DNA from: Alphaproteobacteria bacterium
GTDB taxonomy: Bacteria > Pseudomonadota > Alphaproteobacteria > CAAHEQ01 > UBA3637
Assembly: GCA_017412085.1 (NCBI GenBank)
Contig: JAFPYS010000020.1
Span: 1 to 55,063 of the forward strand
DNA: 55,063 nucleotides
Direction: 5' to 3'
This document shows positions 15,543 to 52,795 of this stretch, one piece after another. Position 1 is the stretch's first letter, and each line of letters begins with the position of its first letter. The position numbers were made by a program, and so were the translations under genes. The notes beneath the pieces are model-generated. The model made no database searches and was not told where the DNA came from. It saw only the letters and a program-made list of their open reading frames with translations.

Positions 15543-16808
15543 TTAAATAATTCCTCGTACTTTCAAGCATTCATGTAATCGAGACAGCACCGCCATCTCA
15601 GACGTTGCAGTTCTGTATGCCGTCTCTGCTAATTCTTTTTGTTTAACCGGGCTAGATAATAATTCCTGCACCGTGGCGGCCAATGCTTGTTCATCAGGCA
15701 CTTCTATCAATGCTTGCATTTCTTTTCCACTTTGCACAATTTCTTTAAAATTAAATGCATAAGGACCGATCACCACAGCACGCGACAAGCTCATCGGTTC
15801 CAACATATTTTGGCCACCAAATGGAATTAAACTTCCCCCCACAAACACCACAGGAGCCAACCGATATAAAAGTCCCATTTCTCCAATGGTATCAGCCAAA
15901 TATATATCTGTTTCAGGGGTAATTGCCTCGCCTCTTGAACGACGCGAAACTTTCAATCCTTTTTTGATAAACATTTTTTCAATGCTGTCCGCTCTGTGCG
16001 GATGACGTGGCACACAAATTGTTAAAAGATTTTCAAATTTTTCTTTAATTTGCAAGTGCACAAAAGCCATTTTTTCTTCTTCATTATCATGTGTCGATGC
16101 CCCACACCAGCAAGGCCTATCACCTATTTCAGATAATAATTTTTTCAACTCTGTCTCATCATAAGGAGAAGGCGGGGCCGCATATTTGATATTTCCGACA
16201 CAATCTATTGCTGGGCTTCCCAAAGCCTGCAACCGATTGGCATTTTCAAGCGATTGTCCTAATGTTAGTGTAAAATTTTGCAACATCGGTTTAATAAACC
16301 ATTTTGCACGTTGCCAGCGTTTAAAAGATTTATCCGAAATACGCCCATTTAACAATACCAACGGAATTTTTGCTGCATGAATAGATGCCAATAAATTCGG
16401 CCAAAAATCCGATTCAAACCACAATACAGCATCTGCTTTGAAATGACACACAAAATGGCGCGCCCCCCATGGAGAATCTATTGGAATAAACTGATGAAAG
16501 GCTCTTTCGGGCAATCGTTTTGCCATTAAGTCCGCCGATGTTACCGTTCCGCTTGTGACCATAATATGTAAATTGGGATCCAATTCAAGCAACTTATTGA
16601 TCAAAGGCATCATGGATAAACATTCGCCAACGCTGGCCCCATGCATCCAAATCAATTTCCCATCAGGCCTTTTTTTCGTCGGATATCCCAATCTTTCACA
16701 AAATCTGGTTTTACTTTCCTTCCCCTTCAAACGGCGCACCCAAAACCATATGGCCAATAACGGGGTTAAAGCAACAAAACAAACGCGATATAAAAATAAA
16801 GGTATCAT
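15543..16808 (-). CDS. waaA: Kdo transferase
   Basis: WaaA/KdtA adds Kdo from CMP-Kdo to lipid IVA, ahead of the late acylation done by LpxL. The 421 residues match the family. There is an N-terminal membrane anchor (residues 5-22). The Glycos_transf_N motif is LIWMHGASVGECLSMMPLI (near 52-70). A retaining GT-B C-terminal half carries CVPRHPHRADSIEKMF and FVGGSLIPFGGQNMLEPM. It is the first gene of the waaA-lpxK-lpxL operon, divergent from the winged-helix gene. Confidence 0.95.
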   Translation of the reverse strand: MIPLFLYRVCFVALTPLLAIWFWVRRLKGKESKTRFCERLGYPTKKRPDGKLIWMHGASVGECLSMMPLINKLLELDPNLHIMVTSGTVTSADLMAKRLPERAFHQFIPIDSPWGARHFVCHFKADAVLWFESDFWPNLLASIHAAKIPLVLLNGRISDKSFKRWQRAKWFIKPMLQNFTLTLGQSLENANRLQALGSPAIDCVGNIKYAAPPSPYDETELKKLLSEIGDRPCWCGASTHDNEEEKMAFVHLQIKEKFENLLTICVPRHPHRADSIEKMFIKKGLKVSRRSRGEAITPETDIYLADTIGEMGLLYRLAPVVFVGGSLIPFGGQNMLEPMSLSRAVVIGPYAFNFKEIVQSGKEMQALIEVPDEQALAATVQELLSSPVKQKELAETAYRTATSEMAVLSRLHECLKVRGII

Positions 16809-16822
16809 TTCCTCTCTCTTTT

Positions 16823-16831
16823 TGCTATAAT
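16823..16831 (+). promoter_or_regulatory. Extended -10 element
   Basis: TTGCTATAAT contains a perfect TATAAT preceded by the TGN extension. No good -35 is visible. It would start transcription about 33 bases ahead of the winged-helix gene. Confidence 0.5.
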
Positions 16832-16870
16832 ATGATGTATTCTAGCAAAATTAAAACAAAAAGGCAACAT

Positions 16871-17389
16871 ATGATTGGTCTTTATACCCAAAATACAAAT
16901 ACACTCGCTCAATTGCTGGATTTGTTGCGCGATCTCCCAATTGAAGCATATGAACCATCAAACAAATATGAGGCTGTTATTTGGTTGTCCAATACTCCAG
17001 CGCCGCATGATCTTACCTTGTTACCTTTGGATGAGTCACTTCCTTTAACATTTACTCAATGGCGTTCATTACTTCAAATAAAACAAGCAACAAAAGTTCA
17101 ATACCAAAATACCTTTTTCCTTTTTGATGCCCTTTCCCGCACAATTACAGATTTAAAAACGAAGAAACAAATTCTATTAACCGAAAAAGAAACAGATCTA
17201 ATCATCTTTTTGGTTCAATCTCAAAATCATCAGGCGACAAAAGAACAAGTATTACAAGAGGTGTGGCAATACACACCAGAAATCCAAACACACACGCTGG
17301 AAAGCCATATCTACACACTAAAGCAAAAGTTGGGTGCTCACGCTGACGATTTCATCCAACTTAAAAACGGCTGTCTTTTCTTAACCTAA
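16871..17389 (+). CDS. OmpR-type winged-helix protein lacking a receiver domain
   Basis: A 172-residue protein. Residues 95-172 form a Trans_reg_C (OmpR/PhoB) winged-helix DNA-binding domain: LTEKETDLIIFLVQSQ, then EQVLQEVWQY, and the recognition-helix region TLESHIYTLKQKLG. The N-terminal 90 residues (MIGLYTQNTNTLAQLLDLL) are too short and lack the Asp/Asp/Lys set of a phospho-receiver, so activation cannot be by phosphotransfer. The start was chosen at 16871 behind AAGGCAAC; an upstream Met at 16832 lies too close to the -10. It abuts the convergent ankyrin gene with no gap. Confidence 0.75.
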   Translation: MIGLYTQNTNTLAQLLDLLRDLPIEAYEPSNKYEAVIWLSNTPAPHDLTLLPLDESLPLTFTQWRSLLQIKQATKVQYQNTFFLFDALSRTITDLKTKKQILLTEKETDLIIFLVQSQNHQATKEQVLQEVWQYTPEIQTHTLESHIYTLKQKLGAHADDFIQLKNGCLFLT

Positions 17390-18062: not shown

Positions 18063-18686
18063 TTATTTGTCTTCATACGGATTTTGGAACATAAAAATCT
18101 TTTTGTCAACAGGAATGTTCTGTTTTATATCAAAAAGTGACACGGTGGACTTGATTCCTTGCACATCCAAAACATCCCATTGCTTCAATGTCATTTCGTC
18201 TTTATCAATAACAAGAGTCAACTCGCCCAACTCCTTGGCGCCCTTTTTATGCGCTGTAATAAAATACTCATCCAACACATCTTGTACATCAGTCACCACA
18301 AAACCAGGATCATCAAACAATAATTTATCACGCAAAATCCATTCTACAGGCGTACTGTTTAAATCAAAATAATTTACTTCTTCCAGGTCTTTATCATGAT
18401 AAATAAACGCGCCTTGTGTGGCCACAAATTCAAGTGGAGACCCTTTTTCATACACAAGACGCATTTGACCTGGTTTAGAAATATAAATCGTACCGGTATG
18501 CAATTCATCCTTCATCTTAGAATTGAATTGGGCAAACTTTGCTTGAAGTGTTTTCATTTTGTTGTACGCTTTTTCAACCTTCGTCAAAATTTCACGATTC
18601 GCCTTTGTATCAACTTTCTTATCCACCAACGCAAAACTTGGCGTCGCAAAAATGAGTGCTAAACACAATAGAACTAGTTTTTTCAT
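18063..18686 (-). CDS. lolA: Outer-membrane lipoprotein carrier LolA
   Basis: LolA shuttles lipoproteins from LolCDE across the periplasm to the outer membrane. The 207 residues have a signal peptide (MKKLVLLCLALIFATPSFA). The conserved block MKTLQAKFAQFNSK is followed by TGTIYISKPGQMRLVYEKGSP. The half-barrel strand pattern continues through LDVQGIKSTVSLFDI. The start overlaps the ftsK stop by four bases (ATGA), so it is translationally coupled. The ftsK-lolA pairing is common in Alphaproteobacteria. Confidence 0.93.
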   Translation of the reverse strand: MKKLVLLCLALIFATPSFALVDKKVDTKANREILTKVEKAYNKMKTLQAKFAQFNSKMKDELHTGTIYISKPGQMRLVYEKGSPLEFVATQGAFIYHDKDLEEVNYFDLNSTPVEWILRDKLLFDDPGFVVTDVQDVLDEYFITAHKKGAKELGELTLVIDKDEMTLKQWDVLDVQGIKSTVSLFDIKQNIPVDKKIFMFQNPYEDK

Positions 18687-20890
18687 TCTTCGCCTCCACC
18701 AACATTAGGCGCTAAAATTTCACGTTTGCCGGCCACATTCGGTGCCGATACAATGCCTTCAGCCTCCATACGATCAATTAAATCTGCCGCCTTGTTATAA
18801 CCAATGGACAATCGCCGTTGAATATAACTTGTCGTCGGCTTTTTGTCGCGCAAAACAATTTGCACCGCTTTGTCATACAGCTCGTCTCCACTGCTGCCAA
18901 CACCGCCCATAGCGCCATTTGCCATATTGGCGGATTCAGACACAACCGCATCCACATATTCTGGACTTCCTTGTTGCGACCAATGTTTCACCACAGCCAA
19001 CACATCCTCGTCCGACACAAATGGGCCATGCACACGCGTCGGCTTGTTACCCGCCGGCATATAAAGCATATCACCACGACCAAGCAATTGCTCGGCCCCT
19101 TGTTCATCCAAAATCGTACGCGAGTCAATTTTGTTGCGCACCTGGAACGAAATGCGCGATGGGAAATTCGACTTAATTGTACCGGTAATCACATCCACCG
19201 ATGGACGCTGCGTTGCCAACACCAAGTGGATACCCACAGCACGCGCCATTTGCGCCAAGCGTTGAATCAACGGATCGGCCTCTTTACCACATTGCCCCAT
19301 CAAATCCGCCATTTCGTCAATGATAAACACAATATACGGCAAAGGCGTTAAATCAAAGGCACGATCTTCCATAATCGGCTCACCTGTTGCGGCGTCAAAG
19401 CCCGTTTGCACGCGACGCTTGAGTTCAATACCATCCGCTTTAGCTTGTTTTAGCTTTTCATTAAAGCCCGTAATATTTCGTACCCCCAACTGACTCATAG
19501 AACGATAACGATCTTCCATTTCGTGCACAGCCCATTTAAGAGCCATCAAAGCCTTTTGTGGCTCCGTTACAACCGGTGTCAACAAGTGCGGAATACCATT
19601 ATAAACAGACAATTCCACCATTTTGGGATCCACCAAAATCAGCCGACACTGATCCGGCGTAAAGCGATATAAAAGTGATAAAATCATCGTGTTAATTCCA
19701 ACGGACTTACCAGAACCCGTTGTTCCCGCAACAAGCAAATGCGGCATTTTAGCCAAATCTGCATACACAGGATGACCGCCAATATCTTTACCCAAAATAA
19801 TCGGCAAGGCCCCCGTGTGTTCTTGAAAAGATACCTGTTCTATCATCTCGCGCACATATACCGTTTCACGCGTTGGATTTGGCATTTCTATACCAATAGC
19901 GTTTGTTCCTGGAATTACCGCCATACGCACAGATGGCACCATCATTTCACGCGCCACATCTTCTGCCAAAGAAATCACCCGGGACACTTTAACACCGGAT
20001 GCCGGTTCAAAAGAATATAATGTGACAACGGGACCAGGCGCCACCTTAGTAATTTTTCCTTGCACTTGGAATTCACGCAATACACTTTCCAACTTTTCCG
20101 AAATCTGTTCACTCAATTCCTTACTCAACATCGGACCAGACGCCGCTTTAACCGGCGCCAACAAAGTGCTAGACGGCAACTCATACTTGCTTTCTTCATT
20201 TAATTCGGCAATAATATCTGCCTTCTTTTTATGTACAGCCGTCGCTTTCAGTTTTTCTTTGGACGCCGATTTTTTGATTTTATTTACCTGAGCCCGGACA
20301 TAAGCCGCTTTAAATGGTTTAGCTATTTTTTCAGGAACTTTTACCGGCAACTTTTTCATTCCCCACAACAAACCAGTTCCAGTCAACACGCCCACCTTTA
20401 CAAGCGGCAATTTTAATGTCATTACAGCCAAAGCCACAACAATAATCCATCCAATAACACTTTGCCATTGATTGGGCATATACCATGCTGCTAAATATTG
20501 TCCGACAAAACCACCCAAACCGGCCTTAAACCAATCCGTTTGATTTTGATGAAATGCTGACAGAAGCCAACACCCTAGAAGACCGGCCAAAATAATGCCC
20601 CCCGTCCGCAACCACATGTGATTTTTTTTAAGCAATAAAAACACGCCAAAAACAATCAACGCCACAGGAACAACAAACACGACAACACCAAACATTTGCA
20701 ATCCTGCATCCGCAAGCCACGCCCCCATTGCGCCCAACCAATTCAGTGTCGGCAACTTTGATGCCGTATTCCATGCGCTGTCCCATTTGTGGTAACTGAC
20801 CAAACTTAAAGCCATAACCAAACCACACAATGACAAAAATATTCCCTTAAACCAAAATGGTACTTTTATCTTCTTTTTCTTTTTAACCAT
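18683..20890 (-). CDS. ftsK: DNA translocase FtsK
   Basis: FtsK pumps DNA at the septum and activates dif recombination. The 735 residues have four to five membrane helices in residues 15-165 and a short, Lys-rich linker (about 190-230). The RecA-like motor carries Walker A VAGTTGSGKSVGIN (near 388-401) and Walker B VFIIDEMADLM. The gamma winged helix (TTSYIQRRLSIGYNKAADLIDRME, about 680-710) reads KOPS sites. The linker is much shorter than in E. coli, as in many alphaproteobacterial FtsK proteins. It overlaps hdaA by eight bases and lolA by four. Confidence 0.97.
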   Translation of the reverse strand: MVKKKKKIKVPFWFKGIFLSLCGLVMALSLVSYHKWDSAWNTASKLPTLNWLGAMGAWLADAGLQMFGVVVFVVPVALIVFGVFLLLKKNHMWLRTGGIILAGLLGCWLLSAFHQNQTDWFKAGLGGFVGQYLAAWYMPNQWQSVIGWIIVVALAVMTLKLPLVKVGVLTGTGLLWGMKKLPVKVPEKIAKPFKAAYVRAQVNKIKKSASKEKLKATAVHKKKADIIAELNEESKYELPSSTLLAPVKAASGPMLSKELSEQISEKLESVLREFQVQGKITKVAPGPVVTLYSFEPASGVKVSRVISLAEDVAREMMVPSVRMAVIPGTNAIGIEMPNPTRETVYVREMIEQVSFQEHTGALPIILGKDIGGHPVYADLAKMPHLLVAGTTGSGKSVGINTMILSLLYRFTPDQCRLILVDPKMVELSVYNGIPHLLTPVVTEPQKALMALKWAVHEMEDRYRSMSQLGVRNITGFNEKLKQAKADGIELKRRVQTGFDAATGEPIMEDRAFDLTPLPYIVFIIDEMADLMGQCGKEADPLIQRLAQMARAVGIHLVLATQRPSVDVITGTIKSNFPSRISFQVRNKIDSRTILDEQGAEQLLGRGDMLYMPAGNKPTRVHGPFVSDEDVLAVVKHWSQQGSPEYVDAVVSESANMANGAMGGVGSSGDELYDKAVQIVLRDKKPTTSYIQRRLSIGYNKAADLIDRMEAEGIVSAPNVAGKREILAPNVGGGEE

Positions 20891-42318: not shown

Positions 42319-42504
42319 CTATGCTTTTACTGTCTTCGCATTTCCAACATTTAGTGCAAACAAATCCAAACAAGATTTTACTTTTCGCAAAACTGTATCA
42401 TCTTTATGTGTTGGTGTCAAAGCAGATAATGCACTTGCTCCCGCAATAATCGATGTAATTGCCGCTAAAATATCATTAAAATTAGTTATAATAAATTGAA
42501 TCAT
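42319..42504 (-). CDS. Small phage protein, holin-like, 61 aa
   Basis: A 61-residue protein with a hydrophobic N-terminal half (FNDILAAITSIIAGASALSAL, about residues 9-29). A conserved-looking TPTHKDDTVLRKVKSCLDLFALNVGNAK tail follows. This form is common at the lysis end of alphaproteobacterial prophages, from memory of the pattern, and its role is not proved. An AGGAGG ribosome site lies upstream. It is the last gene of the cluster, ten bases after the 103-residue gene. Confidence 0.6.
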   Translation of the reverse strand: MIQFIITNFNDILAAITSIIAGASALSALTPTHKDDTVLRKVKSCLDLFALNVGNAKTVKA

Positions 42505-42514
42505 GATTCCTCCT

Positions 42515-42826
42515 TTATTTTAAAATAAGATTCAATAAAGCTACCGAAATGGCAGCAACGGTTGTAGCAGAAATTGCCCCCAAAATTGTTTTAAATGGAG
42601 CTAATTCTGCCCTTTGAACATAGTCCGATTTTAAGGACTGATGAATGCGTTCACAATTTGTCTTTGTTTGAACATTGCCAATAAATGAAACCAATTCATC
42701 GTGGACACCCATCACATGAGTGTTCAATGCTCGTATTTCTTTTTTGATGCCCGTTAATTCGTTTTGTAAATTTGCAACGGTGGCCATCAATTTTCCTGTT
42801 TCTATTGTTAAATTCGAGGTCGGCAT
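42515..42826 (-). CDS. Coiled-coil protein with C-terminal membrane helix (lysis-module candidate)
   Basis: A 103-residue protein. A helical N-terminal part (LMATVANLQNELTGIKKEIR, heptad-like) is followed by a C-terminal hydrophobic helix (ILGAISATTVAAISVALLNLILK, about residues 80-102). This arrangement and its place beside the cell-wall hydrolase suggest a holin or hydrolase-release factor. The start at 42826 follows AAAGGAGA; the longer reading lacks a ribosome site and overlaps the hydrolase. Confidence 0.6.
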   Translation of the reverse strand: MPTSNLTIETGKLMATVANLQNELTGIKKEIRALNTHVMGVHDELVSFIGNVQTKTNCERIHQSLKSDYVQRAELAPFKTILGAISATTVAAISVALLNLILK

Positions 42827-42836
42827 TTTATCTCCT

Positions 42837-43244
42837 TTAATAAAGCGCATAAAACAAGTGATTCCCAATCTCAGCACAAGGAACAGCACATCTTGCCCAT
42901 ACTGGATTACAGCTCAATGTGTGGTAATGTGTTGCCCCTTTTGTGTTATCTGGCAAAAAACCGGCAATAGCCCTTTTGGCCACACGTTCACAAATCTGGT
43001 AAATCTTGTTTTCCTTTAAATCTTGCATTAAAAGGGCACAATTTGGATCATTTTTATTCCAACATGAAAATTGAAATGGCTTTAAACACACTTCTTCAAT
43101 GGTCTTTCCCCACCAATATGATCCAATTTTTTGCGCATGTTTTACTCGGTTTAAAATCACATTTGCTACTGCTTCGATTCCTGAAAGTTTTTCTCCCCTC
43201 GCCTCTCCAAACAGAGTCTTTGCAAAAATTTCCAATTCTGTCAT
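42837..43244 (-). CDS. SleB-type cell-wall hydrolase (endolysin)
   Basis: A 135-residue protein of the Hydrolase_2/SleB family. LFGEARGEKLSGIEAVANVILNRVK near residues 11-35 contains the catalytic Glu. The family's GATHYHTLSCNPVWA block lies near 104-118. No signal peptide is present, so export would need a holin. It follows terL by 15 bases with an AAAGGAAAAT site. In this setting it is the lysis enzyme of the cluster. Confidence 0.85.
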   Translation of the reverse strand: MTELEIFAKTLFGEARGEKLSGIEAVANVILNRVKHAQKIGSYWWGKTIEEVCLKPFQFSCWNKNDPNCALLMQDLKENKIYQICERVAKRAIAGFLPDNTKGATHYHTLSCNPVWARCAVPCAEIGNHLFYALY

Positions 43245-43259
43245 TTTATTTTCCTTTCT

Positions 43260-44684
43260 TTAAAAACCGCCTTGCCATTTTTGATATGTCAAGTTGGCAA
43301 AGGCATTCCTTTTCAATCGCACGGGTTCGGCCAACAAACATCCCGCCACAGCATCCAAAGCGTCATCATGTCCCTTTGGGGCAAATAGGTTAAAGTCTTC
43401 CAACTCATCCAAAAAAGATGTCTGTTTAATGCCTTCATGAACGGACAAAGCACCGTTCATCAGCGGCACCTCGAACGCCGACAAAATACGATCTTGTTTA
43501 TGGCGCCGAGAAACTTCTTCAATCACCGAACACGCAAGTTTTGACCGGTTTAATTCTTGCCTTAATAAAGCTGGCAAAAATTTACCAATTCCATTGGTTT
43601 CCAAATGAATTGCCGGCAAATGATTTTCCTTAATAAATTTCACAACCTCACGGCATTGAAACCCAGCAGCTTCTGTTTGTGGCGGGACATGCAGATACTT
43701 TAACCTATGCAGATAATAGTGCCCATCTGCATCTGAGAAAACACAGGCAATCACGCTGTTATCACCCCCATTTGCACCAAAGGCAGGATCCCACCAACAC
43801 GATACAGAAACCATCTGAGCGTTACCGATTTTTAACGTTGCCGAATCATTGGCTTCGTGGTAGCTCAATTCATCTTTATAAAAGATCAATCGCTTTACAT
43901 CTAAATGAGCCTCTGAAGTCTGTATGGCTTGCAGCATCATTTGACTTTGAAATTTAATAAGACCACTGCACTTTTTCATTCGAGCAATCTTATCTTGTGG
44001 GTATTTTTCAGGCCAATTAGACCTGCCCTGTCGATTCATTACTGGAATTTTTAAACAGCGCCAACCTTTCAAGAAGCCATCAACCGTATTGTATATTGTC
44101 TCTTGCGTATGTGGCGTTCCAACGTACAAAATCATTCCATCGGGGGCAAGAACATACTCCAATTCTCCCAATTTTCTTTTTAATTCTTGCCGCTTGGGAC
44201 CGGTATCACACGTTTTAGGAACCTCTACATCATCGCAAATAATAACATCGGCTCGACATCCCGTCAGATTGGATCCCAATCCCCGCGCCAAAACGGATGG
44301 ATCGCGCCCCGTTGCTTCACGTTTAATTGAAACACAGTCCGATGCCCACTCTTCAAGTTTGTCTGGCTTCATATCAACGCACAACGGATGTTGATCAATG
44401 ATACGTTTGATGTGTTGCACCATTTTTTTCGCCAAATCATGATCGGCCGCCACAATCAAAATTCTTAAATTCGGATTTTGACGCAACAACCACACACAAA
44501 ACAATCCAACCAATGTGGATTTGCCAGATGCCCGAAAAGCCATCAAAAGGCCTCGTTTTTCTTCTTGCCAAATCTTTTCCAAGAAGCGACAAATAGCACG
44601 ATGATGTTTAGGCAAATCCAGATTCAACTGTTGCATCCAAATCCAAGCAAATTCAATCAAACGAATCATCTTCATCTGTGTCAT
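43260..44684 (-). CDS. terL: Phage terminase large subunit
   Basis: The packaging motor. The 474 residues have Walker A FRASGKST (residues 50-57) and Walker B DVIICDDVE (near 147), then a coupling region YVGTPHTQETIYNTV. The RNase H-like nuclease has WWDPAFGANGGD (near 293), IHLETNGIG (near 356) and HDDALDAVA (near 445). All acidic nuclease residues appear present, so packaging should be functional. It overlaps the small upstream gene by 32 bases. An intact terL argues against simple decay. Confidence 0.93.
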   Translation of the reverse strand: MTQMKMIRLIEFAWIWMQQLNLDLPKHHRAICRFLEKIWQEEKRGLLMAFRASGKSTLVGLFCVWLLRQNPNLRILIVAADHDLAKKMVQHIKRIIDQHPLCVDMKPDKLEEWASDCVSIKREATGRDPSVLARGLGSNLTGCRADVIICDDVEVPKTCDTGPKRQELKRKLGELEYVLAPDGMILYVGTPHTQETIYNTVDGFLKGWRCLKIPVMNRQGRSNWPEKYPQDKIARMKKCSGLIKFQSQMMLQAIQTSEAHLDVKRLIFYKDELSYHEANDSATLKIGNAQMVSVSCWWDPAFGANGGDNSVIACVFSDADGHYYLHRLKYLHVPPQTEAAGFQCREVVKFIKENHLPAIHLETNGIGKFLPALLRQELNRSKLACSVIEEVSRRHKQDRILSAFEVPLMNGALSVHEGIKQTSFLDELEDFNLFAPKGHDDALDAVAGCLLAEPVRLKRNAFANLTYQKWQGGF

Positions 44685-44931
44685 TTGTCGCCTTTCGTGC
44701 CTGTTCTAATAAGTCAAACAAATCAGGTTCTGTCATTCCCTTCTCTTTTGCCGGCATCAATTTTTGTATCATTGCTATATGGCCCAACGCTGCTTTACAT
44801 GCATTGTGGTACAAGGCAAAATCCTTGGCCTCCATAGGTGTTATTTGAGCTGAAAATTCATGATAATCCTTGATGGCCTTTGCCAAATAATCGCACCATG
44901 CACAAGACAAAAAAGATTTTTCATCTGGCAT
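44653..44931 (-). CDS. Small terminase subunit candidate
   Basis: A 92-residue, mostly helical, acidic-tailed protein (MPDEKSFLSCAWCDYLAKAI at the start, NDTDEDDSFD at the end) placed directly before terL and overlapping it by 32 bases. Position, size and helical content fit a small terminase subunit. No recognisable helix-turn-helix is seen, so the call is positional. Confidence 0.5.
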   Translation of the reverse strand: MPDEKSFLSCAWCDYLAKAIKDYHEFSAQITPMEAKDFALYHNACKAALGHIAMIQKLMPAKEKGMTEPDLFDLLEQARKATNDTDEDDSFD

Positions 44932-44947
44932 GTCATCTCCTTAAATT

Positions 44948-45412
44948 TTAATCGGACAATTGCCCCAAACGTGCTCCCGCATTTAACACATTTGTTTGTT
45001 GAGCAATTCGTGTTTTGTTTAAGTTTAACAGGTTACGACTTTGAGTCTGTTTTAAACGATTATTTAACGTCCTCAATGAATATTGTGTTTTTTTCTGTTC
45101 GTATTTATTTTCCATATCCGTTTCTTTTTGCATTGTATTCAAAACAACTTGACCAGAGCCCGTTTCTGACGTTAACCCACTGGCTCCCAATCGAGCCTTA
45201 TAAGCTGATTGTTGTTTGGCCAATAAATTTCTATTTCTCCGTTCTGTTTCTTTTAAATTAGCCTCCTGTGCTTCGCGTTCAATGCTCGTCTGTTCTGCGG
45301 CTAATTTATTTGCTTGTTTTATTGTTTTCTTTTCTTCACGATGTGCTTTATCTGTATAATACGTCGCTCCTAAAATAGAAACGACCGTTGCTACTGCTGC
45401 TGCTTGAGCCAT
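44948..45412 (-). CDS. Internal virion protein-like, Gln/Lys/Ala-rich
   Basis: A 154-residue protein. A short hydrophobic N terminus (AAAVATVVSILGATYY) is followed by a long coiled coil rich in Gln, Lys and Glu (KKTIKQANKLAAEQTSIERE), then ARLGASGLTSETGSGQVVLN. This matches the small internal or ejected proteins of podoviruses, which carry an A-x-GASG(V/L) motif after the coiled coil. Podovirus core proteins are often much larger and accompanied by a lytic transglycosylase, so the ejection set is reduced here. Confidence 0.65.
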   Translation of the reverse strand: MAQAAAVATVVSILGATYYTDKAHREEKKTIKQANKLAAEQTSIEREAQEANLKETERRNRNLLAKQQSAYKARLGASGLTSETGSGQVVLNTMQKETDMENKYEQKKTQYSLRTLNNRLKQTQSRNLLNLNKTRIAQQTNVLNAGARLGQLSD

Positions 45413-45414
45413 AT

Positions 45415-47340
45415 TTAACCTCCTAATTTTATATCAGTTGTTACGGATACCAGTCTAAATGGTTGAGGACTAGATCCTTTAATTTCCCATAACGGTTGTG
45501 TTGGTGTTCTAACCCATCCCAATGATCGCAAAACCAAATCTTTTGTTTTTTGCGTATTAGGACTATTCAGTTCGTATGCTGCTAAATCTGGAACCATTTC
45601 TTGATGCACCCCGGTTCCCGTATCAATTTCCAAGGATTGTGTATCTATTAATCGCAAGACCAATCTCACCAATCGATAACTAGGAACTAACGCATTTCCA
45701 TCGTTTGCCGCGGCCGTCGCGGGTAATGGCGTTACCCGATGTTCAAACGGCAATCCTACTTCTATTTTTTGAGCCGGATACAAAAGTGTACATGTTCCGT
45801 CCACCACAATTTGCGGATCCAAAACAATGCCATCTCCTGTTAAATAAACGGTTTTCCCATTTAAATGAGCAAGATTTGTTAACGTTGTTGTGGCTTCTTC
45901 AAACTCGAACAAATGCCCACTATCCGTGTGCAGTTTATCATCAAAACATTCCAAACTATATGCTGTTCCACGTTTAATGATAAAATAAGCTTGATTACCT
46001 AAAATCGCCACCGACAAAAACGCCCCATCCGTTAATTGTTCGGTCCAGCTTTGTAAATTTTCAGAACGGAAACTTGTTAACACAACCAAGTGGCCATTGT
46101 TCATCACAATATAAGCTTGCCGTTCATATTTATCATATGCCATATCAATCGGGCTTTGAATCAAATGACGTACCAACAAAGACAAATCTGTCGCCTGATA
46201 AATACCCTCTAAATCCGAAAACAAAAATTCCCGAATTTCTCGACCATTTGCTCCTGCGAAAATCGTTGCCCCATCAATAGCCAGTGGTGGTACAAATATG
46301 TCCGATCGACTTCCCACTTGTGTTTGTCGTTTTAATTGAATTTCACTTGGGGTCAGTGGATCCCCAGATACCATCCATTCGGCGCTGGTTGTAAATACCT
46401 GTAAATGACGATTTGCAAACAGAGCCACAATATAATCCGATTGATCTGATAAGATTGTAAACTCTATTGCCTCAGCATCATATCCAGATCCTAATTCAAA
46501 ATTGGTAATATCGCCCGTTTGGCTAAACCACAACGTGCTAGACAATGCTTTACTGCCCCCAAAAACAAGACGTGATTGATATGTACAAACTGTTTGTGGC
46601 CATCCTTTTGCACTACAAAACGCTGGCTCCCCCCAATTCCGCGTTGCCTCTAATGCTGTGGAAGCTCCTGCGGCATCATCATCTACGAGTTTTTTCTTCA
46701 CGGTTGCCGTCGCACTTGTACTACTGTTCACAGATTGAATTTGCACATAGCCATCAGCCAACTTAAACTGCACTCCAACGTGTCGACTTTCAAACACTGC
46801 CGAACTGGTTGTTAATGTTACAGTTCCCAAACACCCAGAAGAGGCCATTGTCACACTATCTTTACCAAATCGGCTATATGGTTGACAAATACTTCCCGCA
46901 TCTACTAAAAAATTGAAATTTTCAAGATGCCACGAACTGTTTGTATAAACAAAACGTTTGGGTTGAACATTCGGATGGACAACCACAATTCCATTGGAAA
47001 CTTGACACCAGTTAATTTGACGTATTTGGGTCGAGGTCCACGGCGTTTGTATCGTCGTTATCAACGCATCATTTTGATAAACTTTGGTTGCACCATCTTG
47101 AATCAACAACAAAAATCGTGTTTGGCTGTCTGGTTCAAAAGCAATCAAACGCCCAAAAGAACCTGTGTCTGCTATATATTTTAGACCTGGCCTGCGATGG
47201 ATCCCCCCTGTCGGCTCCAAAAAGACATTTTTCAGGGCCATCGCTCCGTTTGCATAAGCCGTTAAATCTACACGACCCAGCATATCTGAAGACAATTCTC
47301 CCGCCGAAAAATTTGTCTTGCTTGAAAATAAATTTGTCAT
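45415..47340 (-). CDS. Podovirus tail nozzle/stabilisation protein
   Basis: A 641-residue protein beginning KTNFSAGELSSDMLGRVDLTAYANGAMALKN, then GGIHRRPGLKYIADTG. This N-terminal signature is common to tail-tube or nozzle proteins of many podoviruses. The rest is beta-rich (WFSQTGDITNFELG, EWMVSGDPLTPSEIQLKRQT). It starts four bases inside the adaptor gene (coupled). No separate tail spike or fibre follows, so this would be the most distal tail part encoded. Confidence 0.82.
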   Translation of the reverse strand: MTNLFSSKTNFSAGELSSDMLGRVDLTAYANGAMALKNVFLEPTGGIHRRPGLKYIADTGSFGRLIAFEPDSQTRFLLLIQDGATKVYQNDALITTIQTPWTSTQIRQINWCQVSNGIVVVHPNVQPKRFVYTNSSWHLENFNFLVDAGSICQPYSRFGKDSVTMASSGCLGTVTLTTSSAVFESRHVGVQFKLADGYVQIQSVNSSTSATATVKKKLVDDDAAGASTALEATRNWGEPAFCSAKGWPQTVCTYQSRLVFGGSKALSSTLWFSQTGDITNFELGSGYDAEAIEFTILSDQSDYIVALFANRHLQVFTTSAEWMVSGDPLTPSEIQLKRQTQVGSRSDIFVPPLAIDGATIFAGANGREIREFLFSDLEGIYQATDLSLLVRHLIQSPIDMAYDKYERQAYIVMNNGHLVVLTSFRSENLQSWTEQLTDGAFLSVAILGNQAYFIIKRGTAYSLECFDDKLHTDSGHLFEFEEATTTLTNLAHLNGKTVYLTGDGIVLDPQIVVDGTCTLLYPAQKIEVGLPFEHRVTPLPATAAANDGNALVPSYRLVRLVLRLIDTQSLEIDTGTGVHQEMVPDLAAYELNSPNTQKTKDLVLRSLGWVRTPTQPLWEIKGSSPQPFRLVSVTTDIKLGG

Positions 47341-47906
47341 TGGCGCACCTCAATAAGTGAAAAATCTTGGAAACACGCAGGTATATCTTGTTGACTGTCT
47401 GTTAATTTAGCCATTTTAAATTCTTCATCAGCTCGATTGTACATGTAATCTGTTCGCGTTGTGCTTTCCGTTAATGGTAAACATAATTCAGCAGATAACC
47501 GGGCAATCAAAGCATTACAAAAAAACGGCGGAAATTCGGATTCATTAGGTCTGCGAATATATGAAATCATAACCTGTTCTGAATTTGTATGAAGCGTATT
47601 TCCAACAATTTTATATTTTAATCCTTGGCTTTTAATTCCATTACCTGCAGACAGTATTCTTACGCAATCATTCGGTAATTGATATGCGTATTTATAATCC
47701 GCTTTTGGTGCTGTCACAAGGCGAGCCAACTCCACTTTTTCTAAGGCAAAGCGCCACGGATAAGAAGCCAACAAACTTTCCAACGTTGGCTCATAAAGTT
47801 GCATACACACTTTTGCTTCTGCTGTATCCTCATCAAATGAAGCAATAGTACTAGCCCCTAATTTTACTAAGGCCCGAGAACATAAATCAATTTTTGTATA
47901 GATCAT
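47337..47906 (-). CDS. Head-tail adaptor / tail tubular A-like protein
   Basis: A 189-residue protein of the gp11/tail-tubular-A type. It starts IYTKIDLCSRALVKLGASTI with the DEDTAEAKVCMQLYEPTLESLLASYPWRFA block, both typical of podovirus adaptors, and YQLPNDCVRILS follows. It should sit between portal and nozzle. It is separated from the capsid gene by a strong hairpin terminator and coupled to the next gene. Confidence 0.8.
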   Translation of the reverse strand: MIYTKIDLCSRALVKLGASTIASFDEDTAEAKVCMQLYEPTLESLLASYPWRFALEKVELARLVTAPKADYKYAYQLPNDCVRILSAGNGIKSQGLKYKIVGNTLHTNSEQVMISYIRRPNESEFPPFFCNALIARLSAELCLPLTESTTRTDYMYNRADEEFKMAKLTDSQQDIPACFQDFSLIEVRQ

Positions 47907-47920
47907 TTTGGCTTCCTTTC

Positions 47921-47952
47921 AAAAAAGAAGCCCCCCTGCAAGCAAGGGGGCT
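47921..47952 (-). terminator. Terminator between capsid and tail genes
   Basis: On the minus strand the stem AGCCCCC/GGGGGCT is followed by TTCTTTTTT. It would reduce tail-gene expression relative to capsid. Confidence 0.85.
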
Positions 47953-47971
47953 GTTATTTAACATGTTTTTT

Positions 47972-48844
47972 TTAGGTTTCTGCGTTTGCATCTTCTGCGG
48001 CAGGCGGCGTATCCAAACAAACCATTTTAACGACGCCGTCTTTATCAATTAAGCAAGCGCCTTGGCTCATCATATTGTTCACATAATGAGCGGCATAATC
48101 GCCGTGCCATGTGATGTCTGTTGTGATATCTTGTCCGGCAGCCAAACCAACGGCAGATTTATGGTAAATAAAACATGTTGTTGTGGCACTTGAACCAGAA
48201 CCAGACGTTGGCAAACCTGTGTGCATAATCCAATTAATTCCCATCCACTTGCGAGATTCAGAACCCGCAACAAACGGATGTTCATCGCCAACATAATTTG
48301 CATTGGAAAATTCATCCAAACTAAGCAGCTGATTCCATTGCGCTGGGCCAACCAATGCATAACGTTCACCGTCATCAGGCACATTTTTACTATTTAATTT
48401 GGCAAATGCTTCTAAAATACGGTCTTTTGTTAAGGCTTCACTAGATGTACCGGCCGTTGCTGTGGCGTCACCCAAGGCCGCAATAATTAAGGCATCTGTT
48501 TTGCGTCCCAAAGCATAAGCTCCCGCCGTTGCCAAGACTTTTCGTTCATCGTGACCAACCTTCAATTCATCCAATTTATCCACCCATTGTCCGGCATACC
48601 AGTCAGATAATTCACATTCCACTGGGGCATGTGTAACAGCCGAGGGTGTCAATTGTGCATTTCTTGCGCTTTTTTGATTTGCCGTCTGCGCTCCAATGAC
48701 TTGGAAAGTTGTGCTAGTTCCTGTGATACCACCTTTAAAACGGACGGTATTTCTGAGTTTAGAACCTTGTTGTTGATAAGCGTTATGAACTTCCGCTTCA
48801 AAATGTTTAATAAAAGAAGCGTCAATTGCTGTAGATACTGTCAT
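47972..48844 (-). CDS. Major capsid protein
   Basis: A 290-residue HK97-fold-type coat protein, as judged by length, position after the scaffold gene and pattern. The N-terminal arm (FIKHFEAEVHNAYQQQGSKL) leads to an ELSDWYAGQWVDKLDELK region. AFAKLNSKNVPDDGERYALVGPAQW is typical of podovirus coats, and the C terminus is ALIDKDGVV-like (GACLIDKDGVVKMVC). Translation starts after AAAGGAAT. It is flanked by hairpins on both sides. Confidence 0.8.
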   Translation of the reverse strand: MTVSTAIDASFIKHFEAEVHNAYQQQGSKLRNTVRFKGGITGTSTTFQVIGAQTANQKSARNAQLTPSAVTHAPVECELSDWYAGQWVDKLDELKVGHDERKVLATAGAYALGRKTDALIIAALGDATATAGTSSEALTKDRILEAFAKLNSKNVPDDGERYALVGPAQWNQLLSLDEFSNANYVGDEHPFVAGSESRKWMGINWIMHTGLPTSGSGSSATTTCFIYHKSAVGLAAGQDITTDITWHGDYAAHYVNNMMSQGACLIDKDGVVKMVCLDTPPAAEDANAET

Positions 48845-48887
48845 AAAGTATTCCTTTCATTTTTTAGGGTTAATTTTAAAGTTGAAA

Positions 48888-48926
48888 AACGAATCAAGTT
48901 ATGAAGAAAACTTCGCTTGATTCGTT
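48888..48926 (-). terminator. Long hairpin between scaffold and capsid genes
   Basis: 11-bp arms AACGAATCAAG/CTTGATTCGTT, with an inner CGAAG/CTTC pairing on the minus strand and a short T run after it. It could be a weak terminator or an RNase processing site that sets capsid mRNA levels. A perfect DnaA-box 9-mer lies at 48955-48963. Confidence 0.6.
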
Positions 48927-48970
48927 TTGGTTATATCTTGTGGGGCTTAAAAGCTTATCCACAAAAAGGG

Positions 48971-49615
48971 TTAATCATAAAGGCGTTTAAAACCCGCCTC
49001 TACACGTTTTAAAAGTTCTGGATCTTGATCGCGCCAATATTTTGGGCTTTGCATCAACTTTCTCAACGTTTCTTCATCATCCATAGTTGACACTTTGCCG
49101 CGTCCTTGAACCAATGGCGATTCCACATTTCCTTGCATCATTTGGTACATCGTCAAGATTCCTTTTTTCGTTTTTGATAAAGCATTAAAAATTTCTGGAT
49201 CTAAATTCTTTTCTGCCCACGTTGAAATTTGTCGTGCAATCGTATTAAACTGTTCTGCGCCACCGAATTCTTGCTCTAAATCTTGCAGTTCTCTATCTGT
49301 CGCAATATCTTCTACCATTTCTTCCATAACGGGTAAAATTTTGTCGGTTGCCAAATCATACACAACTTGTGCTTGCTCATTTGTGAAACCATGTTTGAAC
49401 AAAATTTCGTTAATTTCTGGATCAGATTCAATCAGTGGATTTTTACTTTTAATTTCATAATCGGCAGCAGATTTTGGCATCTGAGAATCTTCGCTTTTGG
49501 GCGCAGACATCTTTTTTTCCAAAGCCAAATACGATTTCAATAATTCTTCTGTTTTTAAATCTCCATTTTCATCTAAAAATTTTTCTGGTACTTTTGTTTC
49601 TTTTGTATCGGTCAT
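48971..49615 (-). CDS. Capsid scaffolding protein
   Basis: A 214-residue, highly acidic, helical protein (TDTKETKVPEKFLDENGDLK at the start) placed between portal and capsid genes, as in T7-like and related podoviruses. The middle has ATDKILPVMEEMVEDIATDRELQDLEQ, and the C terminus is basic-helical (PELLKRVEAGFKRLYD), as needed to touch the coat. The start lies one base from the portal stop, with an AAGGAG site inside the portal gene. Confidence 0.8.
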   Translation of the reverse strand: MTDTKETKVPEKFLDENGDLKTEELLKSYLALEKKMSAPKSEDSQMPKSAADYEIKSKNPLIESDPEINEILFKHGFTNEQAQVVYDLATDKILPVMEEMVEDIATDRELQDLEQEFGGAEQFNTIARQISTWAEKNLDPEIFNALSKTKKGILTMYQMMQGNVESPLVQGRGKVSTMDDEETLRKLMQSPKYWRDQDPELLKRVEAGFKRLYD

Positions 49616-49616
49616 T

Positions 49617-51116
49617 TTATTCTCCTTGTGTTTGTTGTTGTAATGGAATTAAAGGTGCTTTTTGTGCTGTTTGAAACAATGAATCGGGTATATTCAACTT
49701 TTGCCCCAACCATCTCACAAAAGCAGGCACATCCACTTGTGATAAAGCTGTTTCTCCTAATTTTGTAATTTCTTCTAACCATGTAAGCGCATTATTCGCT
49801 TCTGTTTCGGCCTGTCTTTTTGAACGTCCGGATTGATACGCAACCTTCAAATATCTTCCGTCAATGAAAACATCCGGAATTTCACCGCGTTTACGTAAAA
49901 TCGCTGCGGCTCGTTCAATTAATGGCATCAGTAATTCGGATTGCAATCGACCATATGTTGCCCCTAAAACCAACAGCATATCATCTGTCCGTTCCCTGAC
50001 TTCAGTCGCTGTCATTGTGTTACCATTGTCCAATTGACCTAATTTATCGCCCAATAAAGCATGTCGGATATGTTCACGCAAATCCTTTATCACAAGCTGG
50101 GAAACATCGAATTTGCCCGGCGATTCCAAGGCCGTCAATCCTTTCGAGCCAACGGCTTTTGGAATAATAGCACCCGGGGTCAGACGGATATTGGCGGGGT
50201 TTAACACACCATCATCCTCGGCAAGCCAAATGCCCGTCACTGCGATTGTGGCATTTTTAAGGATTAATTCCACAACCTTGTTTGCCGTTTTAATATCTGG
50301 CAAAGCCTTCATGACGGGAGAACGGCCATAAACTTCCCCCGGGGCCTTCAGCCAACGAAAAGCAATAAAGGGGGACGTTTCATAAGTACATTCTTTTAAT
50401 AAAACGGGCTCCCCTTTATTGGTGAATTGTTGGCAATCTGGATTTAAAAAAGCGGTATATGAATACGTCCCATACATATTTGGCTTAACGCATTCAATAA
50501 TTTCTAAAGTTATTTCTTCTTTTTTTGCCTTAGCCATTATGTCTGGCGGCAAGACAACTTCACCGAATCGAGAAATAAATGTATTATAATCCATCTGTGT
50601 TGTCCGAAAAATATAATCTAATTTACCCGTCGAACTTTCCGACAGACACAGCTGCGATAATGGTATCGCAGTAAATCTAAATGCAGAAGTTGATCCGAAA
50701 GGGGTCTCCTCAAACATCAAACAGGCAGTCCCCACGGTGATAAGATCCAAATAGCATTGATGAATCTCCATCGCAAAATTACTACGATCAAAATTCGTTT
50801 GAATTGCTTCGGTCATCTGATCCAATAATGGAACGATTTTTTCACGCTCATCCGAAGAGAATTCAGTTCCAGCGCTTAATGAAAACCAACGAAGCCATGG
50901 AGGCGTCAATTCTGATAACATCATTGCGCCTAATTGATCCACGGCGTCTGGCGCTGTTCCATCATAGAGCCGATTCGTTTTGTCCGCCGAAGGGGCAAAT
51001 ATCGCTTCTCTCTGAGGAAAGGCATATTCATAGCATTCTCGCCATATTGTTTCCCACGTCGCTCGCTCTTTCAATGCTTGCTTATAGGCATTGTATAATA
51101 CAATTGTATCTGTCAT
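49617..51116 (-). CDS. Portal (head-to-tail connector) protein
   Basis: A 499-residue protein of the podovirus head-to-tail connecting family. Signature blocks are WRECYEYAFPQREAIF, LYDGTAPDAVDQLGAMMLSELTPPWLRWFSL (residues 46-77), and the long stem helix ending near TATEVRERTDDMLLVLGATYGRL (about 365-390). It forms the dodecameric vertex. It is the first virion gene, with an AAAAGGAG site. Its leader holds two hairpins and follows a strong promoter. Confidence 0.88.
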   Translation of the reverse strand: MTDTIVLYNAYKQALKERATWETIWRECYEYAFPQREAIFAPSADKTNRLYDGTAPDAVDQLGAMMLSELTPPWLRWFSLSAGTEFSSDEREKIVPLLDQMTEAIQTNFDRSNFAMEIHQCYLDLITVGTACLMFEETPFGSTSAFRFTAIPLSQLCLSESSTGKLDYIFRTTQMDYNTFISRFGEVVLPPDIMAKAKKEEITLEIIECVKPNMYGTYSYTAFLNPDCQQFTNKGEPVLLKECTYETSPFIAFRWLKAPGEVYGRSPVMKALPDIKTANKVVELILKNATIAVTGIWLAEDDGVLNPANIRLTPGAIIPKAVGSKGLTALESPGKFDVSQLVIKDLREHIRHALLGDKLGQLDNGNTMTATEVRERTDDMLLVLGATYGRLQSELLMPLIERAAAILRKRGEIPDVFIDGRYLKVAYQSGRSKRQAETEANNALTWLEEITKLGETALSQVDVPAFVRWLGQKLNIPDSLFQTAQKAPLIPLQQQTQGE

Positions 51117-51128
51117 TTTTTCTACTCC

Positions 51129-51149
51129 TTTTCAATTTAAAATTGAAAA
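51129..51149 (-). repeat. Inverted repeat overlapping the portal ribosome site
   Basis: 10-bp arms TTTTCAATTT/AAATTGAAAA around one base; the 5' arm on the plus strand overlaps the AAAAGGAG site of the portal gene. Confidence 0.6.
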
Positions 51150-51177
51150 AATCACCCTCTATTTGGGGTGATTTTTT
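51145..51177. terminator. Bidirectional terminator-like hairpin in the portal leader
   Basis: 9-bp stem AAATCACCC/GGGTGATTT with a T run on both sides. On the minus strand it lies 36 bases after the late promoter and before the portal gene, so it should stop transcription unless overridden. Confidence 0.8.
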
Positions 51178-51212
51178 GTTTATAGATACACTTCTTGCTT
51201 TCAATTATTTTT

Positions 51213-51241
51213 ATAATATCACATTTTTTAAAAAATGTCAA
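51213..51241 (-). promoter_or_regulatory. Late promoter of the virion genes with palindromic operator
   Basis: Perfect -35 TTGACA (51236-51241), 17-base spacer, -10 TATTAT (51213-51218). An 18-bp perfect palindrome (ACATTTTTT/AAAAAATGT, 51221-51238) fills the spacer and is a possible operator. Confidence 0.75.
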
Positions 51242-51244
51242 GGA

Positions 51245-51637
51245 TTATTTTCCTTTTTTTTGATTTAAAAAACAAAAAAGTTGATACGGGGTCCATAAAT
51301 TAAAGCAATTTATCCCCAAAAAACGCTTAACCATTTCAACACACGTCAACGGACGTAAGTGAAATTTCACTCGGCTTGGAATTTGCGGCGTTGTTCGGAC
51401 AATTTTATATCCCCTATTTATAAAAAATGATTCAATATGTAATGTCTTCACTATAATTAGATCTGTAAAATGCATGACAGGATCTATAACACACCATTCA
51501 CGACCATTGCCTAGCACAATCAAACAATGGTAAAAACCTTTTTTTAAAAAATACGTCCACCAATGGGTCGGCAGCCCTCCAAAAACAACATAAGCAAAAG
51601 CTGGTCTATATCCAACAGAAATCGTATGTTTTAACAT
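51245..51637 (-). CDS. Phage-associated protein, possible permuted NlpC/P60-like fold
   Basis: A 130-residue protein, MLKHTISVGYRPAFAYVVFG at the start. A His-containing strand (KKGFYHCLIVLGNGREWCVIDP, near 32-53) precedes a Cys-containing helix (LTCVEMVKRFLGI, near 105-117). The order His first, then Cys in front of a helix is that of circularly permuted NlpC/P60 or LRAT-like peptidase folds; this is only a pattern match. The start is at 51637, directly after a run of ten G residues that forms the ribosome site. A start at 51664 would overlap the upstream gene. Confidence 0.55.
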   Translation of the reverse strand: MLKHTISVGYRPAFAYVVFGGLPTHWWTYFLKKGFYHCLIVLGNGREWCVIDPVMHFTDLIIVKTLHIESFFINRGYKIVRTTPQIPSRVKFHLRPLTCVEMVKRFLGINCFNLWTPYQLFCFLNQKKGK

Positions 51638-51638
51638 T

Positions 51639-51648
51639 CCCCCCCCCC
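51639..51648 (-). repeat. Ten-base G homopolymer at a translation start
   Basis: G10 on the minus strand, one base before the ATG of the 130-residue gene and two bases after the upstream stop. It serves as the ribosome site and is prone to slippage. Confidence 0.8.
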
Positions 51649-51650
51649 AA

Positions 51651-52007
51651 TCACCCAGCAACAATACCTTTTTTCCTTAATAAAACATCCAAAAAATTCA
51701 GCCCTTCACGCCATAATTCGCATATTTTAAGACTGTCCCCAAAATGTGGATGAGGCGGAACCTGGCTTGTACCATATTTAGACAAAACTTTCACGTGAGA
51801 CGGACGCAATATTCCCATCTGCGCCAATCTTTTTACCGCTATAATAATGTCTGAAGTTTCACAGGGGCGTGCAACATTCGAATCGGCTCTGTGACAGCTT
51901 CCCTTTTCCAAACCTTCACACAAACAACACCAAAACCAAGCTTCTTCCGCGCTGTCAAAAGGGGTTGTCTTTTTTTCTTTAGAAAATGACAGGTATTTAT
52001 TCCTCAT
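51651..52007 (-). CDS. Conserved alphaproteobacterial protein of unknown function, first gene of the cluster
   Basis: A 118-residue protein, MRNKYLSFSKEKKTTPFDSA then EEAWFWCCLCEG, with ARPCETSDIIIAVKRLAQMGIL, RPSHVKVLSKYGTSQVPPHP and the tail LLRKKGIVAG. I recall similar proteins with AEEAWFW and ARPCDPDD motifs in other Alphaproteobacteria, but know no function. It is probably a small helical regulator or adaptor. The start at 52007 is behind AAAGGAGACA. It is transcribed from the promoter overlapped by the LexA-type box, so it should be SOS-induced. Confidence 0.6.
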   Translation of the reverse strand: MRNKYLSFSKEKKTTPFDSAEEAWFWCCLCEGLEKGSCHRADSNVARPCETSDIIIAVKRLAQMGILRPSHVKVLSKYGTSQVPPHPHFGDSLKICELWREGLNFLDVLLRKKGIVAG

Positions 52008-52033: not shown

Positions 52034-52048
52034 GAACAAAACAGGAAC
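52034..52048. promoter_or_regulatory. LexA (SOS) box of alphaproteobacterial type
   Basis: GAAC-AAAACAG-GAAC, equal to GTTC-N7-GTTC on the minus strand. It is an exact match to the known alphaproteobacterial LexA direct repeat and overlaps the -10 (52046-52051) of the cluster's first promoter. Confidence 0.75.
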
Positions 52049-52074
52049 ATAATCCAGATTTTTTTCTTTGTCAA
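52046..52074 (-). promoter_or_regulatory. Promoter of the phage cluster's first gene
   Basis: On the minus strand: perfect -35 TTGACA (52069-52074), 17-base spacer, -10 TATGTT (52046-52051). It faces away from the S24 regulator promoter. Confidence 0.7.
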
Positions 52075-52159: not shown

Positions 52160-52795
52160 ATGCAGCTTTCTTATCATGAAATTTGGAACGGCCTAGAAAA
52201 CCTCGCAAAGGCCAAAGGACTATCTTTATCAGCCATGGCCCACAAGGCCGGACTAGATCCAACAAGTTTTAACAGATCAAAACGAATCGGTGCCGATGGG
52301 CGCAAACGTTGGCCATCCACAGAAAGTATGAATAAGGTCTTAAAGGCCATGGATGTAACTGTTTTCGAATTCATGGAATATGCGGGGCAACCGCTTCCCC
52401 AACCAAAATACACCATCCCCCTGTTGGGATTAGCAAAGGCAGGACGAGAGGGGTATTTTGATTCTGATGGCTATCCATTATCTACAGATGAATGGGACGG
52501 CATTGATTTTCCTATGCAACTTGGGCGAGGAGTCTACGCACTTGAAGTTTCTGGAAACAGCATGGAGCCGGTTTATCGGGCGGGTGACAAATTAGTAGTC
52601 CAACCCGATTCGGAAGTTCGCATCAATGATCGTATCGTTGTAAAAATAAAGACCGGAGAAGTTATGGTAAAAGAGCTTGTCCACAAAAGTGCAAAAAAAA
52701 TAGAGTTAAAATCATTAAATCCCCTGCACGAGCTTATTACATTAGAACCGAACGACGTCTGTTGGATGGCGCGGGTTATTTGGGTGAGTCAATAA
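52160..52795 (+). CDS. HTH regulator with S24 (LexA/CI-type) peptidase domain
   Basis: A 211-residue repressor. The N-terminal helix-turn-helix has LAKAKGLSLSAMAHKAGLDP, TSFNRSKRIGADGRKRWPST (about residues 17-56). The C-terminal S24 domain has an Ala-Gly bond in GLAKAGREG (near 94), the nucleophile Ser in EVSGNSMEPVYRAGD (near 137) and the general-base Lys in NDRIVVKIKTGEV (near 165). Self-cleavage on RecA activation is therefore plausible. This form is widespread in Alphaproteobacterial chromosomes, so it may be a host gene rather than the phage's own repressor. The start at 52160 follows GAAAGGAT. It overlaps convergent rlmB by 20 bases. Confidence 0.85.
   Translation: MQLSYHEIWNGLENLAKAKGLSLSAMAHKAGLDPTSFNRSKRIGADGRKRWPSTESMNKVLKAMDVTVFEFMEYAGQPLPQPKYTIPLLGLAKAGREGYFDSDGYPLSTDEWDGIDFPMQLGRGVYALEVSGNSMEPVYRAGDKLVVQPDSEVRINDRIVVKIKTGEVMVKELVHKSAKKIELKSLNPLHELITLEPNDVCWMARVIWVSQ

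Follow-up and report, generated by a model that had tools for sequence, protein, structure and literature searches.

The window, our term for the whole stretch of 55,063 nucleotides analysed here (contig JAFPYS010000020.1 of an Alphaproteobacteria bacterium, assembly GCA_017412085.1; the whole genome assembly has 967 kb in 21 contigs and is 86% complete), contains a minus-strand run of 13 open genes (positions 42319 to 52007) that encodes a T7-type head, a short tail, DNA packaging and lysis. On the evidence of its genes, and with a probability of roughly 0.6, we read this cluster as the head-tail-packaging-lysis operon of a domesticated gene transfer agent (GTA) of podovirus type under SOS control. 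We computed directly the gene set, its vertical inheritance, the purifying selection on it, a LexA box at its promoter, a fibre gene at a second locus and the linkage of that fibre to glycan genes. A podovirus-type GTA under SOS control had been raised by an original prediction made from the window, and both the genomic criteria for GTAs and the LexA box lend it support. The genes of the cluster, from the last to the first of the operon, are as follows:

42319..42504, minus strand: small membrane protein in the holin position (phrog_9685; conserved in the family), the operon's last gene
42515..42826, minus strand: small predicted membrane protein, from its position a possible second holin or spanin partner (conserved in the family; start codon uncertain)
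42837..43244, minus strand: endolysin, a cell-wall hydrolase (PF07486, Hydrolase_2; profile match)
43260..44684, minus strand: terminase large subunit (TerL) of T7 type (NF033889, 377 bits against a cut-off of 150)
44653..44931, minus strand: small gene, a putative small terminase subunit (TerS) from its position (phrog_31793, function unknown)
44948..45412, minus strand: candidate gp14-like small internal virion protein, from its place after tail tube B and its sequence character (no family match)
45415..47340, minus strand: tail tubular protein B, the nozzle (phrog_376)
47337..47906, minus strand: tail tubular protein A (phrog_394)
47972..48844, minus strand: major capsid protein (PF19821 / phrog_3437)
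48971..49615, minus strand: T7-type scaffold or capsid assembly protein (PF05396)
49617..51116, minus strand: portal, the head-tail connector (PF12236)
51245..51637, minus strand: u139, a conserved 139-aa protein with invariant His, Asp and Cys-Val-Glu motifs (homologue in 32-kb Vibrio phages)
51651..52007, minus strand: u123, a conserved 123-aa helical protein, the operon's first gene (conserved in the family)

The original prediction had counted eleven consecutive genes; there are 13, and its account of their single strand, open frames, extent and capsid, tail, packaging and lysis functions holds. The terL gene is single copy in the window genome, and the ATPase and nuclease catalytic motifs of TerL are invariant across the aligned relatives. 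Profile searches of the cluster proteins turned up neither an integrase nor an RNA polymerase in the cluster, and no gene for replication or a fibre. The earlier statement that genes for integration, replication, transcription take-over and receptor binding are not seen is right for the cluster; for receptor binding it does not extend to the genome, which has a fibre gene on contig C6. Within the cluster, no integration or replication functions appear to accompany the particle genes, as is expected of a GTA. The predicted structures of u139 and u123 were confident or fair, yet neither had a fold match in the PDB.

Next, we looked into how the cluster is distributed across the family. It was found in the same gene order and as a single copy in 27 family genomes, all compared genomes being drafts, and it was intact except at contig ends; all 11 genomes of the window genus and most of the sampled genera of the family carry exactly this cluster. 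No extra phage modules lay beyond either end of the cluster in the 27 genomes, and no convincing att-like repeats flanked it. Its left neighbours are host genes that are found again from genus to genus. In five genomes (G007, G029, G033, G026 and G032) the cluster comes after the ATP synthase operon (atpAGDC), and in two of these (G007 and G033) that operon is itself closely preceded by the metallopeptidase and SixA genes known from the window's flank. Four others (G031, G017, G018 and G016) have lnt and an XRE regulator in this place, and another part of the window genus has a pilus- or secretion-type operon there. The site between SixA and rlmB, which had been proposed for the comparison of related genomes, holds for the window species only, with close relatives sharing the SixA side alone and other genera having other conserved sites.

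We compared a tree of six concatenated cluster proteins with a tree of rpoB, both built by quick search. The family formed one clade in the cluster tree, 18 of 20 splits were common to the two trees (shuffled mean = 0.28, maximum = 4), and their patristic distances were strongly correlated (r = 0.93). In the cluster-lacking genera (g2, g4, g6 and g10) and in genome G027, a genome search found the capsid gene gone too, and these absences are therefore losses or gaps. An empty-site comparison via atpC met operons too divergent for a clean definition of the site; an observation that is suggestive at most came from G035, where an lnt-like gene comes after atpC, each of the two being a neighbour of the cluster elsewhere in the family. 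These results indicate that the cluster has evolved in concert with its host and been transmitted vertically, as GTAs are.

Furthermore, the dN/dS ratios, obtained by a simple counting method with synonymous sites saturated in most pairs, were mostly 0.02 to 0.15 (one unsaturated pair included), with 0.02 to 0.11 for the capsid and 0.05 to 0.12 for TerL. The dN/dS check that the original prediction had called for thus found strong purifying selection on terL and capsid, not relaxed selection, and the structural and packaging genes appear to be kept intact by selection, another property of GTAs. Its preference for a maintained particle maker over random decay is supported by this selection and by the absence of adjoining phage modules in the 27 genomes and of att repeats. 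In the near-identical pair G026 and G032 (L037 and L057), tail tube B and the gp14-like gene had a dS of 0.7 to 0.84, against 0 to 0.2 for most other shared cluster genes, a pattern consistent with homologous replacement of one tract.

Upstream of the operon, we identified the following features:

52034..52048, plus strand: predicted LexA box GAACAAAACAGGAAC (GAAC-N7-GAAC direct repeat; motif match), overlapping the end of the operon promoter's -10
52046..52074, minus strand: predicted operon promoter TTGACA-N17-TATGTT, reading into u123
52160..52795, plus strand: divergently transcribed S24 repressor of CI/LexA type that retains the Ala-Gly cleavage site and the Ser/Lys dyad (profile match and alignment)

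The GAAC-N7-GAAC repeat, a described LexA motif of alphaproteobacteria (PMC3323433, PMC12907096), is conserved in the intergenic region between S24 and u123. Its strict consensus, GAACAAAAYARGAAC, has two perfect matches genome-wide, one at the cluster promoter and one at lexA, where it stands 27 bp before the stretch encoding the DNA-binding domain of LexA; recA is preceded by a one-mismatch copy. Across the family, the box was present in 18 of 22 loci, compared with 1 of 22 for a reversed-letter control pattern. The operon is thus predicted to be under the control of a host regulator, LexA, as is characteristic of GTAs, and the proposed SOS control has stronger evidence in a predicted box common to the operon, lexA and recA than in the S24 gene alone. 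The S24 cleavage site and Ser/Lys dyad are kept in all aligned family genera except g5 (L049 and L052), where they and the LexA box are gone together and control has seemingly been rewired. We had considered S24 to be the only connection to SOS and gave this up in favor of the LexA box.

The putative receptor-binding part of the particle is encoded elsewhere. In distant alphaproteobacterial relatives, a T7-type tail fibre is encoded inside the cluster, between the gp14-like and terminase genes, and is about 500 to 790 aa long, with shorter forms of 278 aa at two loci and of 182 aa in a further group. In the family, where the cluster itself has no such gene, a genome search placed a fibre of phrog_1640 at one unlinked place in 22 of the 27 cluster-bearing genomes, in 2 of 15 cluster-lacking ones (bearing versus lacking, P = 4e-5) and in 0 of 14 control genomes. 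The fibre of the window genome is a 549-aa open reading frame on contig C6 (L324:5321-6970), followed by a partner gene of about 100 aa that recurs in the family. A fibreless particle, which we had considered, is ruled out by this unlinked gene. GTA genes would accordingly be spread over several loci here, a dispersal typical of GTAs. The two cluster-lacking genomes with a fibre, G019 and G027, have neither capsid nor terminase, and the small partner gene is present in G027; their fibre may be a relic, reflect an assembly gap or serve a separate use.

We then examined the surroundings of the fibre. Surface-polysaccharide genes (glycosyltransferases, rfb genes, GDP-mannose dehydratase, RgpF-type proteins and others) adjoin it in 15 of the 17 family loci with enough flank, and homologues of such genes were found downstream of it at 12 of 17 places, compared with 2 of 41 control places (P = 5e-7; the control places were cluster flanks and the window, self-locus matches were excluded, and the queries had been taken from these loci themselves). 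The first 165 residues of the fibre are conserved (mean identity of 59%) and the tips are hypervariable (mean of 18%). The most similar tips were those of G012 and G018, which belong to different genera (80%), and of G004 and G009 (54%), and each of these pairs also shares three neighbouring glycan genes at 67 to 93% identity. Over 16 loci, tip similarity was correlated with the sharing of glycan genes (Mantel r = 0.44, P = 0.0004). The fibres of RcGTA, the GTA of alphaproteobacteria with which the original prediction had compared the cluster, attach to the capsular polysaccharide of their own host (PMC10218006), in keeping with a fibre gene retained next to glycan genes.

Together, these observations suggest how a GTA of this kind would work. 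DNA damage would activate RecA, upon which LexA would leave the box at the operon promoter and the S24 repressor would cleave itself, and the cell would make T7-type short-tailed particles. TerL would package DNA, presumably pieces of the host genome because the element is without replication or integration functions of its own, and the holin and endolysin would lyse the cell. The particle would carry the fibre from the second, unlinked locus; since this fibre is encoded beside the host's surface-glycan genes, the particle should bind cells with a matching glycan, that is, kin, and may deliver its DNA to them.

Several observations weigh against this GTA reading. We recognised no ejection proteins of the gp15/16 type among the cluster genes; genome-wide, phrog_342 (gp16-like) matched only generic lytic-transglycosylase domains, which are uninformative because all genomes and the eight controls have them. 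Terminases of T7 type usually make their cuts at defined ends, in contrast to the headful packers from which RcGTA arose (PMC7947584). No fibre was detected in five cluster-bearing genomes, including one that is 99% complete (G014), two cluster-lacking genomes (G019 and G027, above) have one, and no LexA box was found before the fibre gene. The link between tips and glycan genes comes mainly from two pairs of loci, and G023 and G030 share glycan genes but not tips. Finally, the particle, its DNA packaging and the transfer are deduced here from genes.

The main rival, unlikely but the most credible of the alternatives, is an SOS-induced killer similar to PBSX, in which lysis frees DNA-filled particles that adsorb to competitors and kill them, genes not being usefully transferred. 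The glycan-linked fibre would then be matched to the surface of the producer, sparing self or hitting non-self. The SOS box, the lysis genes, the glycan-linked fibre and the lack of recognisable DNA-ejection proteins all fit such a killer, but terminase, portal and scaffold are intact and under strong purifying selection, which argues that DNA packaging itself is maintained. Moreover, ComEC is encoded in 29 of the 30 family genomes checked, so that recipients could import DNA, although not specifically in cluster-bearing genomes. Because it occurs with and without the cluster, we discarded ComEC as a discriminator. PBSX is a long contractile-tailed Bacillus element. The likeness of PBSX-type defective prophages to the cluster lies in particle genes linked to SOS without self-propagation; their gene set is unrelated.

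An improbable second alternative is a maintained particle with another host function, such as a programmed lysis that follows DNA damage or the release of some cargo that is not chromosomal DNA. It draws on the fact that the role of the cluster is read from sequence and on u123 and u139, the functions of which are unknown, but it sits poorly with the retention of all packaging genes and a receptor-binding fibre, which point to DNA delivery to other cells. A little less probable again is a vertically inherited, functional temperate phage or phage satellite with its replication and integration genes elsewhere in the genome. One structural gene, that of the fibre, is already unlinked, and the nearest complete relatives are true phages, namely Pelagibacter phage Hodr and the 32-kb Vibrio phages, one of which (PG9A-2) has an annotated integrase; against this stand the congruence of the trees, the conserved sites, the single copy per genome, the absence of att repeats and the IMG/VR relatives listed, without exception short fragments, 22.6 kb at the longest. 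Least of all do we credit a recently trimmed, now decaying prophage, the simpler alternative in the original prediction. Broken-up terL matches in a single genome (G034, 68% complete) might recall one, but we rejected it on age, intactness and selection: the genes are intact in 27 genomes spanning many genera, dN/dS lies far under 1, and the cluster descends from the family ancestor.

The same two phage groups allowed us to compare the cluster with its nearest isolated relatives (capsid identity of 42% for Hodr, 34 kb, and of 28% for the Vibrio phages). Both share related proteins and the order portal, scaffold, capsid, tube A and tube B with the cluster, and the Vibrio phages also share u139; unlike the cluster, both encode large internal virion proteins as well as functions for replication, and in PG9A-2 a large fibre-like gene adds to the integrase. 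As far as its genes can be recognised, the cluster has none of the ejection proteins, replication module and fibre that a functional T7-type phage would unite in one segment and that Hodr and PG9A-2 contain.

Among known GTAs, the closest published analogue in design, as likened by description, is FpGTA of Faecalibacterium (PMC12946183). According to the excerpted account, it resembles the cluster in its main operon of about 10 kb, podovirus-type set, unlinked fibre operon, gut host and several loci, and differs in its Firmicute host; FpGTA II also has lysis genes. Packaging by FpGTA was shown experimentally there (fragments of 8.4 to 8.9 kb), whereas the cluster is known from genes alone, and the excerpted account reports no LexA box and no link to a glycan locus (PMC12946183). 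RcGTA (Rhodogtaviriformidae, type I) is likewise alphaproteobacterial, vertically inherited and under purifying selection, with accessory receptor genes at other loci, but it is siphovirus-like and has a headful, P22-like terminase ancestry (PMC7947584). The cluster has a T7-type set, a different capsid family and a LexA box, and its NF033889 TerL, PF12236 portal, PF19821 capsid and short-tail tube proteins place it outside the RcGTA type. BaGTA (Bartogtaviriformidae, type II) is alphaproteobacterial, has co-evolved with its host and has a main cluster of similar size; its capsid is of HK97 type, and its genes are linked to an origin of run-off replication that derives from a virus (PMC9662315), in contrast to the PF19821 capsid of the cluster, beside which no linked origin was seen, and we set the two apart by description.

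Capsid relatives are common among alphaproteobacterial genomes, with at least 536 contigs, and in IMG/VR as well; the best 80 of the genome records are, by their titles, nearly all from alphaproteobacteria or uncultured proteobacterial metagenome-assembled genomes. All IMG/VR matches listed are at most 22.6 kb, none of them phage-sized. In six IMG/VR contigs (L262, L274, L277, L282, L285 and L292), the provirus boundary falls at the S24 gene, several having an endolysin at the other end; such short proviruses are possible GTA-like units catalogued as viruses. We tentatively entertain a wider proposal, which we consider somewhat more apt to fail than to hold: that a third, podovirus-type class of alphaproteobacterial GTA extends across many families and that, in this one, it came under LexA control and its fibre moved out of the particle operon into a surface-polysaccharide locus where the tip is swapped jointly with the glycan genes, whereby DNA packages triggered by damage would go only to cells with the same surface.

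The alphaproteobacterial GTAs so far fall into two recognised types, both with HK97-type capsids, and the single published podovirus-type GTA is in a Firmicute. If the GTA reading is true, a podovirus-type lineage in gut bacteria with genomes of roughly 1 Mb broadens what is known of GTA diversity and accounts for many of the short "proviruses" that viral databases list, and there is a plain link between DNA damage and DNA sharing. In addition, a fibre beside a glycan locus makes kin-targeting by GTAs, an old question, directly testable.

Some relatives carry further genes within the element. A GGDEF-EAL sensor gene between the scaffold and capsid genes (L262:4788-6638 and L301:6056-8410) hints at control by cyclic di-GMP, and one relative has an integrase-like gene (L303:12992-14542) and a resolvase-like gene (16486-17067) inside its element, probably a later insertion. 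In related gut alphaproteobacteria (L182 to L225, about 40 loci), TerL is split into an ATPase frame and a nuclease frame (e.g., L187:14297-14911 and 18151-19074), and the gap between them holds about 3.3 kb of conserved host-type genes on the opposite strand (dnaB, an XRE regulator and a 219-aa open reading frame). A split terminase of this kind could hardly be maintained by a phage and suggests extreme domestication.

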